Notes under the pieces: model-generated
Told to the model about the DNA's origin: nothing
The model's database searches: none
What the model saw: only the letters and a program-made list of their open reading frames with translations
Program-made: the position numbers and the translations under genes
Assembly: GCF_018873765.1 (NCBI RefSeq)
Contig: NC_057918.1
Span: 12,098,862-12,162,861, forward strand
Length of the DNA: 64,000 nucleotides
Direction of reading: 5' to 3'
From: Telopea speciosissima
Lineage: Eukaryota; Streptophyta; Magnoliopsida; Proteales; Proteaceae
Shown: positions 16,514-54,840 of the stretch, in pieces
Layout: every line of letters begins with the position of its first letter
Numbering within the stretch: position 1 is the first letter of the stretch

Positions 16514-19169
16514 ATGTCGGAAGCTAAAGACCCGGCGATTAAACTGTTTGGAAAAACAATCCCTCTCACTACCAACGAAGATACTCTAGCTGCAGTTTCC
16601 TGTGTTTCAGGCTCTGCTACTGATGCTATTCCTGTTACTTTCCCTGTTGCACAGGATCACAATATCGACCTCGATCTCGATCTTCCTTCGACCACTTCTT
16701 CTGATGACAGCAACAAGTCCAACAAAGTGGAAGAAGATCAACAACCACAGCAAGAAGAAGAAGAAGAAGAGAAGTTATTGAGAGTACAAATTACAAAGTA
16801 TTTGAATTGAAAGTGTTATAGTACAGTTTGACTTACTCTCTTGCAAATCAAGAACCCCTTTCTCTGAGGACTAAGATCAATACTAGTTTCATCTTATTTT
16901 CTCGGGGTTTCTTTTCTTTCTTTTCGAGTTTTGCTGATGGGTGTGTTTTGTGAGGTATTCCGAGCTTTGTTTAGGATTTTCGGCTATTGAGTTTATAGCT
17001 GAAGGTTACATTTTGACATCTATCTCTGTTTTATATTCTAGGTTCCCGTATGTTGTTTTTGTTTTCGATTGCTTCTTTTCCAGGCTTTTATACTTCTCTA
17101 TGCTTAAAATGAGTAATCTGCTTCACTCAAAGAAAATATACGCTCGTAATCTGGGTTTGTGACTTCGTTCTATTTTGGGTTTCCGATTTTCTTATCCGCT
17201 TAATTCTTTTTGTGTGAGACAAGCTCTTATTTACAACTGTTAACTCTTCAAATTTCACTGGCTGTCCAGTTGGATTGACGAATTCTGTATTAGTTCAGTG
17301 ACTCGAGAAATTCTGGAGATATCTGGGGTTAACTACCTCTGAAAAACTCTGTTCAATTGTCAAATTTCGAGTTTTGATTCAGCTTTCTCCTCTTATTGAC
17401 TGTCTTAAATATTGTTCAAGAATCGTTTGTTTTATGTGTTTTCCAATTTTAACAGCAAATCATAGGGTGTCACGATAGGATGATTTTGGATAAGAAGAAC
17501 TTTTCTTCTAAAATCAGCAACTATACAACAGCACCCAGTTTTAATTCGGTTGAATATTTCTATTATTAAAGAAAATAATGTAAAGTCTTGCCTTTTCCTC
17601 TATGTTTTCCTCTTACATTACTACTAGTGAAGCTGATTCCAGCTTTAAAGTAGTATGATGATCTAGTGGGAAGTCTTCAGATAAGCCCTTGTTGCATATA
17701 AAGCAACAGAAAAACATATTAAATTGATTATTAAGGAAGATAGTAGATTCGTGCATAAATTTGAAGTGGATTATCTTCTCCTGCATTGGTTTCCTTCTGT
17801 TATTACTAAAGCCATGCCTGTTATTATTCCTGTTTCTTACTCAAAATATGGTTTGGGATATCAGGATACATTGGGAGATAAACCCACTGAAAATAAAGAT
17901 GATGGTGCACCTCCTCCAAGTTCAGACGAATCGACAAATCCAGCTACATTGTCAGGGACTGATAAGAACCCTAAAACACCCTCTGTTGACAAAGAAACTG
18001 CAATGCCAAATGCTTCCAAGACTGAAGAAGAACAGGGTGAGACAAACAATTCACAAGATAAAACTCTGAAGAAGCCAGACAAGATCCTTCCATGCCCCCG
18101 CTGTAATAGCATGGACACCAAGTTCTGTTACTATAACAATTACAATGTCAACCAGCCCAGGCATTTCTGCAAGAACTGCCAGAGATACTGGACAGCTGGT
18201 GGGACCATGAGAAATGTGCCTGTGGGTGCTGGCCGTCGCAAGAGCAAGAGCTCTGCTTCACATTACCGGCACATTACTGTCCCCGAGGCCCTCCAAACGA
18301 CTCCATCAGATACACCAGATGGAATTCACCATGCATTGAAACCCAATGCCACCGTACTCACTTTTGGCTCTGACACGCCACTTTGTGAATCGATGGCTTC
18401 TGTGTTGAACCTTGCAGAGAAAACAATGAGGAATTGCACAAGTAATGGATTTCATAGACCTGCAGAACAAAGAATTTCAGTTTCTTGTGGAGGGGGAGAA
18501 AATGGCGATGACTACTCCAGTGGATCTTCTGTCACAGCTTCCAACTCTACAGTGGAGGGAAACAAGGTCGGTTTGCAAGATGTAATGATGCGGAATTGTC
18601 ATAGTTTTCCTCCTCGGATACCATTCTTTCCAGGGGCTCCCTGGTCATATCCATGGAACTCAACTCATCAATGGGGTACTGCGGTGCCCCCGCCTGCTTT
18701 CTGCCCTCCAAGCTTTCCTGTATCATTCTACCCCACACCAACCTATTGGGGTTGTGCTGTCCCAGGCACCTGGAACGTCCCTTGGCTCCCCCCACCATCT
18801 TCTTCTCCAAGTCCTGGGGCTCCAGTCTCTGGTCCTAACTCGCCTACCTTGGGAAAGCATTCAAGAGATGGTTATATGCTTAAACCAAGTAATTCAGAGC
18901 AAGAAGATCCAGTAAAACAGGGTGATTCAGAGAGATGCCTTTGGATTCCAAAGACATTGAGGATTGATGATCCCGGGGAAGCTGCCAGGAGCTCCATATG
19001 GGCTACCTTGGGAATTAAGAATGACAAGGCGGATTCAAGTGGAGGAGGGCTCTTCAAGGCCTTCCAGTCAAAGGGCGATGAAAAGAATCACATGGCTGAA
19101 ACCTCTCATGTACTGCAAGCCAATCCTGCAGCATTGTCTCGGTCACTCAACTTCCATGAGAGCTCGTAA
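16514..19169 (+). CDS. CDF: cycling Dof factor (CDF-type Dof zinc-finger transcription factor), join(16514..16783,17865..19169)
   Basis: This is a nuclear DNA-binding protein of 524 residues. CDF proteins bind AAAG sites and repress genes such as CONSTANS and FT until the FKF1-GIGANTEA complex destroys them. Exon 1 encodes the conserved N-terminal [14 protein letters not shown] motif, which in the family recruits TOPLESS co-repressors, then an acidic tail; it ends in phase 0 at AGA|GTACAA. Exon 2 begins after TATCAG|GATACA in phase 0. The Dof finger spans about residues 165-219, with C167, C170, C192 and C195 as zinc ligands and the [15 protein letters not shown] signature. The C terminus has the CDF hallmark [14 protein letters not shown] (from residue 450), followed by [10 protein letters not shown], the region that contacts GI/FKF1. 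Length and two-exon layout match CDF1-3 type genes. The intron is 1,081 bp. Reading through it gives a 98-residue product lacking the Dof finger. The exact orthologue (CDF1, 2, 3 or 5) cannot be fixed by eye. Confidence 0.95.
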
Positions 19170-42438: not shown

Positions 42439-42445
42439 TATAAAA
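42439..42445 (+). promoter_or_regulatory. TATA box of the CML gene
   Basis: TATAAAA lies 134 bases before the start codon at 42573, followed by a CT-rich leader, a normal plant promoter layout. Confidence 0.6.
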
Positions 42446-42572
42446 CCCAACTCCCCCTTCCCTCCTCTTACGCACATCGTCATTCAAGAACTACCTTTCA
42501 TTAGTAATAAAATCTGTTTCCTCTCCAATTCTTCTTCACCCCTTTTGTCTCAGCAACCAATATTACCTTACA

Positions 42573-43166
42573 ATGGAGAGGATTGTAACATTTCCCGTCT
42601 CTCCTTTCTATTTAGTTGGTTTTGTAGGGTTCCCTATATTTCAAACAATTCTCAATTCGGGGATCAGAATTCTCCAGTTTTACTCTGGTTTTTTTCAGTC
42701 ACTCCTCCAATCCCGAAACGACTTTGTATTTGGTGATGATTTGAATGTTCAACCTGAGAGGAAAAGCCTGAATCCTGAACGTTTGAACAAACAATTAAGC
42801 TTGGATGAGAAGGTAGATGATGGAAAGCTGTGCCGAGGAGTAGAGATGGTGATGGAGAAGTTGGGCATTTCTTGTGATCCAGATGGCGAGAAGCTTCAGG
42901 AGAGATTGGGTTTGGATGGGCTTTCGCTCCTGTTCGAGGAAAAAGAACCGACCTCCGAGGAGTTGAAGGAAGCTTTTGAGGTGTTCGATGAGAACAGAGA
43001 TGGGTATATAGATGCAGAGGAGCTACGGAGAGTTCTCTGCGATCTGGGCTTCATGGAAGGATTGGAGTTGGAGGAGTGCAAGAGGATGATTGCATCATTT
43101 GACACCAATGGAGACGGACGGATTGATTTCACTGAATTTGCGAAAATTATGGAGATTAGCTTTTGA
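42573..43166 (+). CDS. EF-hand calcium-binding protein, CML45/46-like
   Basis: This intronless gene encodes 197 residues, a calmodulin-like calcium sensor. The N terminus (about residues 1-48) is hydrophobic, with PFYLVGFVGFPIFQTILNSG, and could act as a membrane anchor or signal anchor, as in the CML45/46/47 group. A charged linker follows. Two canonical EF-hand loops lie in the C-terminal half: D139-ENRDGYIDAE-E150 and D177-TNGDGRIDFT-E188, both with all calcium-coordinating positions intact. The protein ends FAKIMEISF. The group typically has degenerate N-terminal hands, and here only the C-terminal pair is recognisable. The start is the first ATG after the TATA box in this frame. Partner proteins cannot be predicted. 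Confidence 0.92.
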   Translation: MERIVTFPVSPFYLVGFVGFPIFQTILNSGIRILQFYSGFFQSLLQSRNDFVFGDDLNVQPERKSLNPERLNKQLSLDEKVDDGKLCRGVEMVMEKLGISCDPDGEKLQERLGLDGLSLLFEEKEPTSEELKEAFEVFDENRDGYIDAEELRRVLCDLGFMEGLELEECKRMIASFDTNGDGRIDFTEFAKIMEISF

Positions 43167-46750: not shown

Positions 46751-48751
46751 TCAAGTGGCTCCAACCCCAAGAAAATCTATGAATGGTGGTGCAACGCTGC
46801 TGCTCTCAAAATGGCTGGTTGCATTGTTCTCTGTGACGGATGCTGTTGATGCTTCAGCGACTGAAACTTGGGAAGCTGATGTCCTGGAACCTGAGAAACA
46901 ATATAGGTGATGATAGCTTGACTGTTTCATTGCCATCATCGTTGGATGTTGGGTATAGCACGAACCATTGTAGTTGGATTCCTCGCTTGGCCTATCACAA
47001 GACCTGTTCTGACTCAAGAACCCCGGCTTGTTTTGGATATTCGGACCTGCAGAACACCCAATCACAGCTCACACAGAGATGGAAGAAGTAGCTTTGGAAG
47101 ATTTAGTGACCCTTAATTGGTCCCATAAGTGAGGAAAAGGAACAGTTTCCCTACGACAAATCCTTGATTTGGAGACCCATCTTAAATTAGTTAAAGAAAA
47201 AGCGAAATCAGAGGGAGTGGACATTACAAACTATTGGACTTAATTACCGGCTCAAATCAAGTCTCCTAGCTGTGTAGATAAACCTCACCAACTGTACAGA
47301 TATTCTTTCTTTTTTCTTTCATTCTTATCCCTCAATCAATGGGATCTCCTACTCTATATATGTAATCAGTCATAGATAATACAATCATCCAATTCCTCGC
47401 TATCAACTGTTAGAACTTGTCCCACCAGGAAGGAAGAAAGAAGAAAAAAATAATAATAATAAAGAAGCAATCAGAACAGAACAGCACGGATACCCAAATG
47501 CACAGAAAACTAACAAACTATAGAAAAGGTAGGAACGGATCAAAAAGGACATACCGGAGAAGAAATCAAAAGGGACCTGCTCTGGTTGTGCAGAAAACCC
47601 ACTATGAGGGAGATTGTTGCTGGTGGAGGAATAACCATGATGAAACATATCCCTACCGTTTGAAAATGAATCCTCTCCACCACTGGTCAGATGGGGTAAA
47701 CCATTTGAGCCACCATCACCACCACCAATGAGAACTGCAAATGGGAAGGGATGAGAAGGGTTGGTGAAGGCACCATTGCAGAGATTGAGACAGTTGGAAT
47801 CTGATCTTGTAGCTGCATCTGCAGAGTAAAAGCTAACACCTTCCTCCAACCTTCTGTTAACACTTTGGCTCAACTTTCTTCTCCTATAAGCACTGGACTG
47901 CTCTCTGTATTTCCTGGCCATGATAACATGCCAATGGTTCTTGACAGCATTATCAGTTCTCCCAGGAAAGAGCCTAGCAATCATGGCCCATTTGTTTCCG
48001 TACAATCTATGAGCAGCCATTAGCCTATCCTCTTCTTCTTCACTGAAAGATCTTCTGTTGATCCTTGGATCCAACTGGTTAAACCATCTTAATCTACAAC
48101 TCTTACCTACAAAGCCAAAAAAAAAAAAAAATCAAAAGGAAACAATAGTTCTCAATCTTCTTCAAAGGAAACTAAAAGAAGGAAAAACATAAGAGTTAGT
48201 TCATTTGAGTAAAGAACTAATTTCTAATTTCTAATTTCTCCGATCTCTTGTTTCTTACCTGATCTTCCCTCCAACTTCTCTGCGATTAAGTTCCAGTTCT
48301 GAGGGCCATAAAGAGCAACAAGTTCCTTGAGTTTAGTGTCTTCAGCGGGCCTCCAATGCCCTCTGGCACAAAGCCTTGACTGCCCACTATCTATTTCCTT
48401 CCCATTCATTGAATTCACATTTGGGTTCTCCTCATTTAAATTGTTGTAGCTGTCTTCCATGGCGGCATTGTTTTCTACAAACCCATCGTTGGAATCTGAG
48501 CCCTTACAATGGCAACTATCTCTTGAAGAAGAACCAGCTGAAACTACTCCATACTTGGGACTGAGGGAGAGAGAACCCATATCAGCAAACACCCCCATTG
48601 AAGGAGGGGATGAGGAAGTAGAGGAATAATTGCTGAGCCAATTCCATGAGTTATCTGGTGCATAAATATTTGGGGTCAGCTCTCTGTTAATACCTTCTTT
48701 TTCTTGGTTACAGCTGCTGCTGCCACAGAACTGTTGCAAGGTCATGTTCAT
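46751..48751 (-). CDS. R2R3-MYB transcription factor, MYB52/54/56/105/117 (subgroup 21) type, complement(join(46751..47046,47555..48106,48259..48751))
   Basis: This 446-residue nuclear DNA-binding protein belongs to a subgroup whose members act in secondary wall formation, organ boundaries and seed size. Exon 1 holds a long Ser/Asn-rich N terminus and the first part of R2 (CARGHWRPAEDTKLKEL, W133, W153), with donor TCAG|GTAAGA. Exon 2 (acceptor TTGTAG|GTAAGAG) completes R2 (CRLRWFNQLDPR, W172) and carries all of R3 (F185 in place of the first Trp, W204, W223; GRTDNAVKNHWHVIMARK), then AYRRRKL. It ends TCTCCG|GTATGT. Exon 3 (CTGCAG|GTCCG) ends with FIDFLGVGAT, the C-terminal motif of this subgroup. 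Introns are 152 and 508 bp and the phases are consistent (1,341 nt). The start at 48751 (MNMTLQQF) was chosen over an upstream in-frame ATG at 48874 that would add 41 hydrophobic, UTR-like residues. The exact orthologue is undecided. Confidence 0.93.
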
Positions 48752-51065
48752 GGCCAGAGAAGAAAGAAACAAATTGGAAGAGGAGACGAGAAGGGGAGTT
48801 TGACAGAACCTCAGCTTGAAGATGAATAAAGGGTACAGGGTGTTGCAAAGGAAGGCAAAAGCTTGAAACAGCAAAAGTGTTCTAACAGAAACTCACACGT
48901 CTTCTCCTCTCTTAAGAATGAGAGTTCAGTGTGAATCACCATTCACCACCCTGACTGACCCTGACCTTTGTCTTAACTATTCTTTTTCTTCTTTAACAAA
49001 TCCACGTCACTTACTCGTGTGAATGTACCCCATTTCACGCGTGAGAGAATGACCTCCCCTCTCACAGTCTCCCTCTCTCACACCATGTCTCTTAGGGCTG
49101 TCTCTCTCCACCTTGACAGAAAAAAAAACACTACCGTGCTCTGTGTTAGCTTGGGGCCTGCACAGGCCAAGACACCTTTCTTTTCAAGGCCGAATATGAG
49201 GGCTTGACACAACAGCTCCTGCCAACGCTAGTAAATAGCACAACTCTCCATCCACATCAATCCCTCTTTAACTTGAGAAGGGCTAACCTGGGTTTCAGGT
49301 AACCACCTGAAGGAGACCCAGCAGCAAAGCCCATATTGTTAAGAGTGACATTTATCATATATTCTTCTTCTTGACTTATAATAAACCATCCAGATTAGCA
49401 TTTAATCTCAGGTCAGATCAGAACCCCACAAACCTTTCCATCTTCTTATTTACTTTGTCCTTTATTTTCTCTGCAGATGGTGCCAAATTCCACCTAAAGC
49501 TTCTTGTTCACTTCATTTGCTTCTGTATGCCCAAGTTCCAATTCAATATTTATTATTGCTTTTTATTGTTTTCTTGAAACTCAATTCCACCACCAAAATC
49601 CTGCCACCACATTTCCACTTTTTCTTTTGTTCTCAAATCGATTTTGCTCTTCTGTTTCCTACATCATAATTGTCTGTTACTCAATGCCTCTACCAAAATC
49701 AAAGCTGTAATGAACATCTGTGTGTATGACAGTGCACATAGAACTGGGGATTGCATGATATCAGGTAAGGATGTCTTTGGCCTGTTGGCTGTAGCTGCAC
49801 TCCAATTGAGTCATTTCACCGAACACTTTGCACACTTTAAAAAAAACTATTGCAAAATTTTCAGTTTTTTTGGGTGCTAAAATAAATTCAAATTTTCACC
49901 CACTGGTAAACCCAATGCCAGACGTTTCATTTTAATGACGTTACAGTCCTACTACAGGAATGTACATTATTTGCTGCAAAAGAGCAGAGCAACACTGTGG
50001 TCAATTACTTTGAAATGTGCTACTTGTGGAAAACAACCTAACTAAAAGGCTAAAAGGCCAAATAGATGGAAAACCATTACAGAGAATCCAAAAACAGGGT
50101 TGGACCTATTCCAGTTATATCAAAACTCCTCTGGAGTAAGGCAGGACCTTTCTTTAGACCATTGGTCCAAAGCAGGACCCACAGGTGGCATGTTGTGATG
50201 TGGATTAGTACAGTCTCCAATAGACCTCTTCTTAGACTGTACTTCCACAAGAGGGGTGCATGCATGCATGCATGTGCATTTCTGAACTATACATGCTGAT
50301 CATCAGATGATGAGAACCTTTGTGCTTTAAGAGGGTGATTTGATGTACTGGGTCATTTCCCTTTTCCTTTAAAACCATACTTAGGTAAACAAGTCAGATC
50401 TCTTTTTTACTTACTTTAATATCAAATTGTTGTTGTTTGGGGCTCTAATCATATCTGTCTTGTGATTGATCCAAGAAATCTCCAAAAGTGCCCATTTCAG
50501 TTGGGACCTTGTGGGGTTGTTGGGTTAGTACTAAGTCCAACAAATGGGACTTGGTGGGTCATGATCCTTCTGGTGGATCCATCTATGTCAAACAGGACTT
50601 CCCATTGATGGATAAGGTGAAAAGCAAAAGAAAAAGCCCTGTATTATACTAGTTTGAAACTATCTTTGAATATATGGAGCAATAACAAGTAATACAGAAA
50701 ATGAGATGGAAATATGGATTAGTTAGTTATGAAGTTTTGTTTAATTGGGGAAGCAAAGAGACATGTCCTAGTAAGTAACGACCCAATGTGCTATATTATA
50801 TAATATCATATCAGACAAAGGACGGTTGGTTATCCGGTCTCCAACTTTTAAAAAGCCACACGAAGAAGGGAAGGAAACAGGTAAAAAAAAAACCTGTGTT
50901 GTCAGCTGGTAACTAACTGCATGAGAGAATATATTGCTCCCATCAGGAAATCTTCACCTTTGGCCAAATCCAGCAAATTTGATCTTCTCCCTATTCTCTC
51001 ACGTGTTCCAATCGTACTACTATGACTGCCATATGCTTTAGGGTTGAGATCTCCAGCGGGTATGG
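48752..51065. other. MYB promoter region and intergenic spacer
   Basis: 48752-49250 is the likely promoter and leader of the divergent-facing MYB gene; no clear TATA box was singled out. The rest holds no supported gene; short frames such as that at 49644-49880 have no family resemblance. A GCATGCATGCATGCATG run lies at about 50258-50274. Confidence 0.4.
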
Positions 51066-51541: not shown

Positions 51542-52121
51542 TGCTCATATTTTTTTATGCAAAACCAAACAAAAAATATAGGGTAATTTACACATACCAC
51601 CCCTGAGGTTTGACGAAAGGATAATTTTACCTCCCAGTTTTGGAAAATTCTGCGTACCCCCCTGAGGTTTGCAAACGGTAACAAATAAGCCCATTCTGTC
51701 AGTTCATGACTAACAGTGTTAAAATTATGATATGAACTGACAGAATTGCCCTTGCAAAGAAAACCCAAAAAAAAAAAACCCTGCAACTCATCTTCCCCAA
51801 ATCGATTGGGGAAGATGAGTTGCAGGTATCCCTTTCTCTCTTTCTCTCTCTCTTGTCAAGTGTTAATGGATTCTTTTTTTCCCTTTTTGTCCCTGTTCCA
51901 AATCGATTGGGAAAGAGGGGAAATATTCTTCTTTTACAGGCCAAAGGTAGACAAAGAAGAAGCTCACAGATCCGACGATGTACAAAGGTTGTATGTCGTT
52001 CTTCGGCAGGAATCCGGCGAGAGGGCGGTGGAAGAGAAGCAATCTCCAGAATTTGGACATCGGTGGAAATCATTAGTATCTCGTTTTTTTTTTTGGAAGT
52101 GTTATCCATCTCCTCGTCCTC

Positions 52122-52443
52122 TGCAAATCACAAAATAGGGTTTTCATAAGTGTCTGAAACCTGCAACTTCACCATACACTATCATTATACACCGTCCTCA
52201 TCCTCAGCAGACCTCAGCAAATCACAGATAGGTTTTTTCATAGTGTCTGAAACTTCACCATCAATGTCCATTCCTAAGGAACTCTACCCTAGTCAAGATG
52301 ATCTGCTCTACGAAGAAGAGATACTAAGGAATCCGTTCAGCTTGAAACTATGGTGGAGGTATCTCATCGCTCGGAGCAAAGCGCCATTCAAGAAAAGAGT
52401 TGTGATTTACGAGAGAGCTCTCAAAGCTCTTCCTGGGAGGTAA
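52122..52443 (+). pseudogene. captured SYF1 5' fragment inside the Pack-MULE
   Basis: An ATG at 52264 opens 59 codons reading KELYPSQDDLLYEEEILRNP, then FSLKLWWRYLIARSKAPFKK and VVIYERALKALPG. This is the N-terminal HAT-repeat start of the pre-mRNA splicing factor SYF1/XAB2 family. It ends at a splice-donor-like GGGAG|GTAACT (52439/52440), suggesting that genomic DNA, with the first intron boundary, was captured. The preceding leader is duplicated: GCAAATCACA...CTGAAAC...CTTCACCA occurs at about 52122-52172 and again at about 52215-52262. It covers under a tenth of the full protein, so it is non-functional as SYF1. Confidence 0.85.
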
Positions 52444-52522
52444 CTCACATGTCATCCATGAATTTGGCAGCGACCATGACACTGGTGATGAGCAATCGAT
52501 GAACATTGAATGAATTGATGGG

Positions 52523-52644
52523 CAACGAGGGTTGCTTCGTGATGTGGTTACTTATACAGAGCATGCTCGTAGGAAGACTGTGACCGCCATGGATGTGGTT
52601 TATGCTCTTAAGAGGCAAGGCAGGACCTTTTATGGTGGGTTAGG
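52523..52644 (+). pseudogene. captured histone H4 3' fragment inside the Pack-MULE
   Basis: The frame reads [20 protein letters not shown] then [14 protein letters not shown], the C-terminal part of histone H4, which is among the most conserved proteins. There are at least two changes (V for A in DAVTY, F for L in RTLYG) and the GFGG end is lost. The N-terminal two thirds of H4 are missing. It lies about 80 bp after the SYF1 piece on the same strand, in a different frame. Confidence 0.88.
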
Positions 52645-53255
52645 GTTAGGGTTTTTTTTGCTATGTCTTCTCTCTTGGAATCGTCTATATGGATATTTTT
52701 TCTTCAATCAACTATAATCAAACCAAATTTGGTGTGGATAGGGTATGTGAGGACTCTTCCTGAAACCAAAACTGTTCATAAAATTCATTTTCATGGATCT
52801 GATAGGATTTGCGAATCGAATTAACAAGGAGAAGTGATGGTGCTCTGGCTTGATTATTGAATAGATTGTGATAATGAAAACGCAATTTTAATGAAAAGAA
52901 GAAGTTTCTTCTGTTTATCTGTTTTGATTATTTAATTTCAGAAACATCAGATCTGGAGGAGGAGACACCTACGTTTGCCCTTATTTTATTTGTGTTTTCT
53001 TCTGTTCTAGCAACTCATCTTCCCCAAACGATTTGGGGAAGATGAGTTGCAAGCTTTTTTTTTTGTTTTCTTATAAGGGCAATTTGGTCAGTTCACTTTA
53101 TATTTTTAACGTTGTTAGTTATGAACTGACGGAATGGGCTTATTTGTTACCGTTTGCAAACCTCAGGGGGTATGCAGAATTTTCCAAAACTGGGGGGTAA
53201 AATTATCCTTTTGTCAAACCTCAAGGGTGGTATGTGTAAATTACCCAAAAATATA

Positions 53256-54840
53256 TTACTTACTAACAGGGGTACAGCCAAGACTTAGACAGTTATTATC
53301 AGTCCTATACAGTTGGTAAGTTAGACCTTGTAAGTGTTCAGTAGCATCTAGGAAACTAAGCAAAAAAGGTAAGTAAGTTCGAGAAATAGAGAAGGATTGG
53401 AAAGTTAGAAGTTTGAGGAGAGTTGGGTTAGACACCCAAATATTGGTGACCAAGATATTGTGTTGTTGCACAGCTTCCCATCCAACACAAAGACCATACA
53501 CCTCCGCCTCTAGGGCCACCTTTGTAGTCAGCCAACTTGCACCTGTTAGGATACTCTGCCCATCTAGCAAAACACAATAAGTCCATCGAGCTAACTTAAG
53601 ATCTGGTTCAAAAATTCCTGCGATCACCAAACCAGATAAATTCAAGTTAAACCGTTGACTAAGACTAGGAGGTGACAATAATCGAGGAGAGAAGGTTTCA
53701 TCAGAAGCCCTGACAGGGGGTGAAATATCCATATCCGCTAACCAGCAGGAAACATTGTCAAGGACCAACATGGGGTCCGCAATACTATTACACATAATTA
53801 CCTTGTTTCTTACAAACCAAATAAAATAGAAAGTTAAAATAAAGACCGAAAAAAACCAACGCAGGGAAGCCTTATCCAAGTGTAGTGTGCCAAGTAAAGA
53901 GGTCACGAGAGCAAGGAGAGATGGAGCAGCTAGATGCTCAGTTCTCAATCCAAGGGGACTCGAAGCCTATATATGCTTAGTCCAATCACAAGATAAAAAG
54001 AGATGCCAGATGGACTCAACACAAGAACCGCAGAGAGCACATTGAGGCTCGATAACCATCCATTTCGATAGGGTGCCGCGTGTAGGGATCCCTGCATGTA
54101 AGACACGCCAAAAAAAGATTTTAAATCGTAGATGAATTTTCAATTTCAAAAAAAATTTCCACCACTTTGGAAAAATTAGAGTTTGTGGAAGAAGAATTTG
54201 TTAGAAAGTGGGCTGCCCGTTAGGTCGAGAAGGTCCCATTTGTTGAAAGGGTACACCACCACGAGTCCTCATCCCCAGTGATATGGATTTGAAGAATAGT
54301 ATGCACAACAGATGGTGGAAAATAGGCCCTCAATTTAGAAACATTCCATCTGTTGTTAATTATAAAATCACAAACAGAGCTGCAATTTAGAGAAGGGAGA
54401 AGTACCTGAGGCACAACCTGTCCTGTTTTCATTTGGACCCAAGGATCAAACCAACAAGACGTAGTATGGCCGTTACTAATCTTCCTAAAGACAATATTCC
54501 TTAAACCAGATAGGGCCTTTGCTATACTGTTCCAGGTCCAAGACCCTCTCTTCCTTTCAATCCTCGGGTCAAAAATCGAGGAGTGGGGAAAGTATCTGGC
54601 CTTCAAGATTTTGGCCCAGCAAGATGAGGGTTCATTGAGAAGTCTCCAACCCAACTTAAGAATTAACGCCTGGTTATGGAGGGAGGACTTGGAGAGGCCT
54701 AATATGTTAAATATAAGAGAAAGTTTTCTTTCACCCATATATGACGGTTCATCCATCATCCTAGGGTTCATAAATCCCTACGGGGTTTTAGTATGTTCTA
54801 AAAATAACCTCCTAATGTCTTCCTGTCCCACAGTGAATGG
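53256..54840 (-). mobile_element. 5'-truncated LINE (L1-like) remnant, second copy of the family
   Basis: On the minus strand, 54771-54220 encodes the post-RT linker (LILKLGWRLLNEPSSCWAKI, SWTWNSIAKALSGLRNIVFR, DEDSWWCTLSTNGTFST). 54149-53967 encodes the zinc knuckle (FFWRVLHAGIPTRGTLSKW, CALCGSCVESIWHLFLSCDW). 53948-53256 encodes the RNase H-like end (LARWTYCVLLDG, TTKVALEAEVYGLCVGWEAV). Frameshifts separate the blocks. It is better preserved than the copy at 11591-13075. Its 3' end abuts the Pack-MULE target duplication. Confidence 0.85.

Follow-up and report, generated by a model that had tools for sequence, protein, structure and literature searches.

Pack-MULEs are non-autonomous Mutator-like elements (MULEs) that carry gene fragments and have long TIRs and a target-site duplication (TSD) of 9-11 bp, as described in PMC3310237. 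In rice, a single Pack-MULE may hold material from several loci, and Pack-TYPE elements with several-locus material are already known (PMC8903248). In the FoSTeST model, multicopy forms arise through template switching followed by transposition, and the passages of PMC8277862 on this subject leave open whether template-switching models apply to Pack-MULEs. How plant MULEs gather several unlinked gene pieces is not a settled question.

The element described here is very probably a Pack-MULE, i.e. a non-autonomous Mutator-like transposon in which a piece A, a sense fragment of SYF1, an antisense fragment of a cyclin gene, a sense fragment of histone H4 and a piece E lie between long TIRs (Table 1). 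It belongs to a multi-copy, mosaic Pack-MULE family with several separately inserted copies. The window, which is the whole 64,000-nt stretch of DNA that was analysed, corresponds to C3:12098862-12162861 of the host genome (823 Mb in 1287 contigs, 11 of them of 57-88 Mb), whose genes and repeats point to a flowering plant, and this genome was searched. A first-pass annotation had read the locus as a chimeric Pack-MULE joining a SYF1 start to an H4 end on the same strand, between long TIRs and a perfect 9-bp TSD; this is borne out, both gene matches being significant (Pfam, PDB) and both lying on the plus strand. Its count of two gene pieces was right as to SYF1 and H4 and missed the antisense cyclin, pieces A and E and the membership in a multi-copy family.

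Table 1. Features of the element (window positions) and elements that share its pieces (genome positions)
Feature	Position	Strand	Description
Transposon	51581-53246		1666 bp; flanked by AAAAATATA on both sides
Left TSD	51572-51580		AAAAATATA; identical to 53247-53255
Left TIR	51581-51823	+	243 bp; starts GGGTAATTTACACATACCACC
Palindrome, inner edge of left TIR	51783-51823		21-bp arms, 100% complementary
Piece A	51910-52056		captured; common to other TIR elements; candidate non-TIR source C5:28221976
SYF1 piece	52084-52439	+	leader, ATG at 52264, 58 codons and two bases of the next; ends mid-exon
Cyclin piece, presumably P/U-type	52440-52542	- (antisense)	exon end and 9 bp resembling an intron start
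Histone H4 piece	~52540-52656	+	last C-terminal codons, stop region, start of 3' UTR
Piece E	52660-53009		captured; 94% to C6:62269295-62269646
Palindrome, inner edge of right TIR	53010-53050		~41 bp, near-perfect
Right TIR	53010-53246	-	pairs with left TIR
Right TSD	53247-53255		AAAAATATA; perfect 9-bp copy of the left one
SYF1-cyclin-H4 carrier (window)	51581-53246		TSD AAAAATATA
SYF1-cyclin-H4 carrier (C2:149 k)	C2:148873-150847		TSD TTTTTTATT
SYF1-cyclin-H4 carrier (C7:20 M)	C7:20063018-20064845		TSD TATTTTTTT
Cyclin (from 52476 on)-H4 carrier, without SYF1	C2:15.52 M		TSD TTAAAACAA
Cyclin (from 52476 on)-H4 carrier, without SYF1	C10:10.28 M		one end not found
Cyclin (from 52476 on)-H4 carrier, without SYF1	C5:8.08 M		one end not found
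Piece A and first part of SYF1 leader only	C1:76.93 M		TSD TTTTATTGC; interrupted by a Copia-type element
Piece A and first part of SYF1 leader only	C9:56.73 M		TSD 8/9
Piece A and first part of SYF1 leader only	C7:48.25 M		TSD 8/9

The ends of the element carry the marks of a MULE. The left TIR and the reverse complement of the right one are 89.7% identical over 243 aligned columns, the TIR length falling within the typical 100-500 bp, and the perfect TSD of the window copy lies inside the 9-11-bp range. When two 9-mers were drawn at random from the 2 x 1 kb flanks, an identical pair came up in 1 of 200,000 draws, the true chance of such a match being somewhat higher because AAAAATATA is pure A/T. 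The TIR family is large: of 2803 candidates the best 40 were scored, each of them aligning with the query almost from end to end, and the palindrome, detected as a reverse-strand self-match, is kept in each of these 40 copies, which are those most similar to the query. The terminal 21-mer has 294 forward and 287 reverse exact matches in the genome, compared with 0 + 0 for the same pattern read backwards, while the first 18 bases of the TIR had no match in the literature searched. MULE TIRs need not be identical when they insert, and TIR divergence was for this reason set aside as an insertion clock. The insertion had been called fairly recent in the first-pass annotation; the intact TSD is the one argument for this, and the captures themselves are not very recent, because the copies differ by ~5-7% in shared blocks.

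The interior is that of a Pack-MULE. It contains fragments of the host genes SYF1, cyclin and H4 and has no transposase match (none among 44 frames of at least 30 aa, inspected by eye, four of which were run against Pfam), and the parental genes lie elsewhere in the genome, outside such elements.

The surroundings within the window contain several other features. Two MYB-domain frames occupy 47403-48892 on the minus strand, the element lying ~2.7 kb upstream of them. To the right of the element, at 53256-54777 on the minus strand, two long frames have no Pfam match and resemble a non-LTR retrotransposon. A Dof zinc-finger frame (17685-19169) and an EF-hand, calmodulin-like frame (42444-43166) are found further away.

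Homology to SYF1 is strong over 52133-52439, with weaker similarity in the leader from ~52084. The frame 52150-52443 matches the Pfam family HAT_Syf1_CNRKL1_N (PF23233; E 6.8e-12, 45.9 bits against a cut-off of 27) and, in the PDB, the Syf1 chain 8xi2_I (E 1.8e-15). A genome search with 52140-52460 returned eight places including the window. Besides the window, the whole SYF1 piece is present in two elements (C2:149667 and C7:20064003), and three TIR elements, on C1, C9 and C7 (the 48 M copy), have its leader sequence only. The search for parental loci also succeeded: the nearest SYF1 locus, C10:8761284-8761596, is 92% identical to the captured piece, and a second locus on C2 is 89% identical, with a match that begins just before the ATG. 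Both bear long Syf1 frames. In the C10 locus (C10:8756000-8763999), a frame change is observed near residue 400 relative to the C2 locus, and the former may be a decaying duplicate or contain an assembly error.

These loci settle where the SYF1 piece ends. It had been proposed to stop at its first splice donor; in both loci the exon runs past the capture end (GGGAG/TTACAAG on C10, GGAAG/TTACAAG on C2, the slash marking that end) and neither has an intron there. A donor at 52440 is rejected, and the piece is seen to stop mid-exon because both SYF1 loci read through as exon. The donor-like GTAACTC is part of the adjoining cyclin piece. The SYF1 frame of the window copy is open from its ATG and meets a TAA at 52441-52443, i.e. 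it stops at the join.

What had been described as a spacer of ~80 bp before an H4 piece on the same strand is 103 bp of antisense cyclin, the shared strand of SYF1 and H4 being correct. The cyclin piece is identical to C6:55726125-55726228 in 103 of 104 aligned columns (99%), and the minus-strand frame 52445-52639 of the window reaches 29.3 bits with the Pfam model PF08613 (Cyclin; cut-off 21). At the C6 source, a cyclin exon on the minus strand (PF08613, E 4.3e-24) ends in ...VAAKFMDD and is followed by GTGAGTTAC, and a second frame ~0.7-0.9 kb further on matches the remainder of the model. A PDB search with the cyclin piece is weak, with one row, the Pho80 cyclin, at E 0.79; the P/U-type label is one that we take from the sequence and the Pho80-like family. 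The captured piece carries the 9 bp resembling an intron start (GTGAGTTAC, minus strand). An origin from spliced RNA is thereby disfavoured, and the piece was probably copied from DNA.

The H4 piece is recognized by the frame 52514-52717, which matches H4 chains in the PDB (best E 7.5e-16, 37 residues). The Pfam histone model is weak on the same frame (E 0.27), its top Pfam row being the histone fold CENP-T_C with 26.5 bits, just under the cut-off of 28.1. The nearest H4 is a whole gene on C7 (C7:12385136), 91.8% identical to 52540-52656, followed by loci on C3 (89.4%) and C5 (88.6%). The first-pass coordinates, 52264-52443 for SYF1 and 52523-52644 for H4, named the right genes and are corrected here to 52133-52439 (leader from ~52084) and ~52540-52656. 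In the window copy, a few bases immediately ahead of the H4 stop have been lost, and ~64 bp that follow the H4 piece in the C2:149 k copy are absent; by eye, the first part of this stretch resembles the 3' UTR of the H4 gene.

Pieces A and E gave no Pfam match in the frames tried (two nearby frames for E). No TIR end was found in the 3.3 kb of sequence analysed at the candidate source of A, nor in the 3.4 kb analysed at that of E (C6:62269295); the part of E at 52779-53009, together with the right TIR, is common to other TIR elements. Likely sources outside elements are present on C10 and C2 for SYF1, on C6, C2 and C11 for the cyclin and on C7, C3 and C5 for H4, and the 3-8.5-kb stretches around the source loci contain no TIR match above 45 bits.

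Nine elements, the window copy included, were compared. In seven both ends were located, and their TSD is perfect (9/9) in the window, C2:149 k, C7:20 M, C2:15.5 M and C1 copies and agrees at 8/9 in those on C9 and C7:48 M. The SYF1-cyclin junction occurs in 3 of 15 search rows (the window, C2:149971 and C7:20064311), all bounded by TIRs and with three different perfect TSDs (AAAAATATA, TTTTTTATT and TATTTTTTT), two of which are nearly pure T/A and constitute weaker evidence. None of the 15 rows is a TIR-free locus carrying the pieces in this order. The cyclin-H4 junction is present in six elements, and six elements have the beginning of the SYF1 piece (window, C2:149 k, C7:20 M, C1, C9 and C7:48 M).

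Similarity between copies is distributed in blocks. In the C7:20 M copy, the left part agrees with the C2:15.5 M type at 94.8% (800 columns), the SYF1-cyclin-H4 block with the window type at 93.1% (726 columns) and the right part with the C10 type at 93.7% (302 columns). Small changes in H4 are common to the C7:20 M, C10, C2:15.5 M and C5 copies, one of them concerning a 6-bp repeat unit that may be lost repeatedly. In the simplest order, SYF1, cyclin and H4 would already have been joined in a common ancestor, one branch would have lost SYF1 and 36 bp of the cyclin, and the window branch would have acquired different flanking modules through exchange or renewed capture. The reverse order, with SYF1 gained by exchange, is possible.

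Some copies have irregular structures. The C10:10.28 M and C5:8.08 M relatives each show a pair of equally oriented TIR ends, separated by 1.1 and 1.7 kb, respectively, an arrangement like that of tandem-TIR MULEs; no opposite end was found in the 5.5 and 6.0 kb analysed (up to 6 substitutions allowed). In C2:149 k, the first 21 bp of the left TIR are separated from the remainder by ~210 bp of different sequence, and in the C1 relative, whose TSD is perfect, a Copia-type retrotransposon nests within the element and splits it.

At their junction the cyclin and H4 sources share TTC (overlap 52540-52542); the SYF1-cyclin junction is blunt. Such junctions are what template switching in gap repair or replication could leave (PMC8277862), although two junctions are no proof. 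In the proposed mechanism, template switching while an element was being repaired or replicated would have brought in copies of the pieces. The chimera would then have been mobilized as one unit by a transposase from elsewhere, and the present partial versions would be the outcome of subsequent deletions and of exchange among copies.

As a working unit, the window copy is most likely a passive, decaying transposon copy. The likeliest effect on the host, if any, would occur at the RNA level, where transcription started at a TIR promoter and running through could yield antisense cyclin RNA or small RNAs, and a chimeric RNA or small RNA from the element is possible. It is rather unlikely that the element serves as a source of small or antisense RNA acting on the cyclin, SYF1 or H4 genes: its exact 21-mers (79 shared with the C6 cyclin, 107 with the C10 SYF1 and 37 with the C7 H4) and the orientation of the cyclin piece, antisense to any transcript starting at the left TIR, would suit this role, but any recent capture would share 21-mers. 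An extended version, in which same-ended elements would form a reshuffling system of cassettes that trade SYF1, cyclin, H4, A and E modules, and in which antisense cyclin and sense H4 would allow small RNAs from TIR-driven transcription to act back on cell-cycle genes, appears quite improbable; if it were true, the kind of genes captured, cell-cycle genes, would mirror the time and place at which template switching happens.

There is very little to recommend a new functional chimeric gene, with the SYF1 start and the H4 end in one transcript kept by selection. The SYF1 frame is open in the window copy from ATG 52264 to the TAA, and TIR promoters are said in PMC3310237 to drive inner regions of Pack-MULEs, but this frame ends at the join, so that no open frame crosses the joined pieces, and there is no SYF1 splice donor. 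A fusion protein kept by selection is unlikely: besides ending there, the frame is disrupted in two of the three copies, by a stop in C2:149 k and a 4-bp insertion in C7:20 M; in addition, the H4 frame of the C5 copy has suffered single-base losses.

The possibility that the element is another TIR transposon with a 9-bp target duplication and not a MULE is likewise given very low weight. It draws on the search for a linked transposase, in which 100 of the 581 TIR places (63 on C1 and 37 on C2 up to 55.2 Mb) were compared with the places of PF10551, a domain that is frequent in the host genome (150 scored of 827 candidates genome-wide). Among the places listed on C1 and C2, the closest TIR-PF10551 pair is 137 kb apart and no transposase-bearing partner was found. 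No MULE transposase was seen in two longer TIR-bounded intervals either: as autonomous elements, C1:79.36 M is rejected since it contains a DUF659 gene, which we take to be hAT-like, and C1:53.15 M as being devoid of a long frame. A third candidate, C1:76.93 M, is also discarded, its 6.5 kb being due to the nested Copia-type retrotransposon (RVT_2). Against a non-MULE stand the TIRs of 100-500 bp and the TSD of 9-11 bp, which are given as MULE marks in PMC3310237. That the pieces were joined at an ordinary locus by deletions and inversions, flanking TIRs being inserted later, is barely credible, with nothing specific in its favour, the SYF1-cyclin join found only within TIR elements (three insertions, three TSDs) and the nearest sources scattered on C10, C6 and C7.

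The Pack-MULE interpretation places the element among several known systems. Members of the CACTA superfamily, such as Pack-CACTA and Tgm-Express, have other ends and a shorter TSD than MULEs. Pack-CACTA (PMC8903248) and the soybean Tgm-Express (PMC1947982) are also TIR transposons with gene pieces from several loci. Animal Pack-TIRs, for which FoSTeST was proposed, are likewise TIR elements with captured sequence and show short microhomology at many junctions (PMC8277862); the present element differs in being from a plant and in having several sources, and for its joins we only infer a replication origin. The tomato PM-ZIBP, another multi-copy Pack-MULE family, likewise has a captured gene piece common to its copies and includes 13 copies with tandem TIRs, which the C10 and C5 relatives may resemble; in the account of PMC3310237 it has one gene piece, whereas here there are several and the copies differ in their modules. 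The Pack-MULEs of rice, maize, tomato and Arabidopsis described in the same source have the architecture of the window element, which in comparison contains at least three identified genes, one of them antisense, with partial sets carried by other elements of the same genome. The kind of element is thus already known, and this one, which is well preserved, is unusually easy to dissect and makes a good worked example: within a single genome the likely sources can be set beside three copies of the complete mosaic and six further elements with parts of it, and a comparison of the individual junctions allows the sequence of captures, losses and swaps to be reconstructed.
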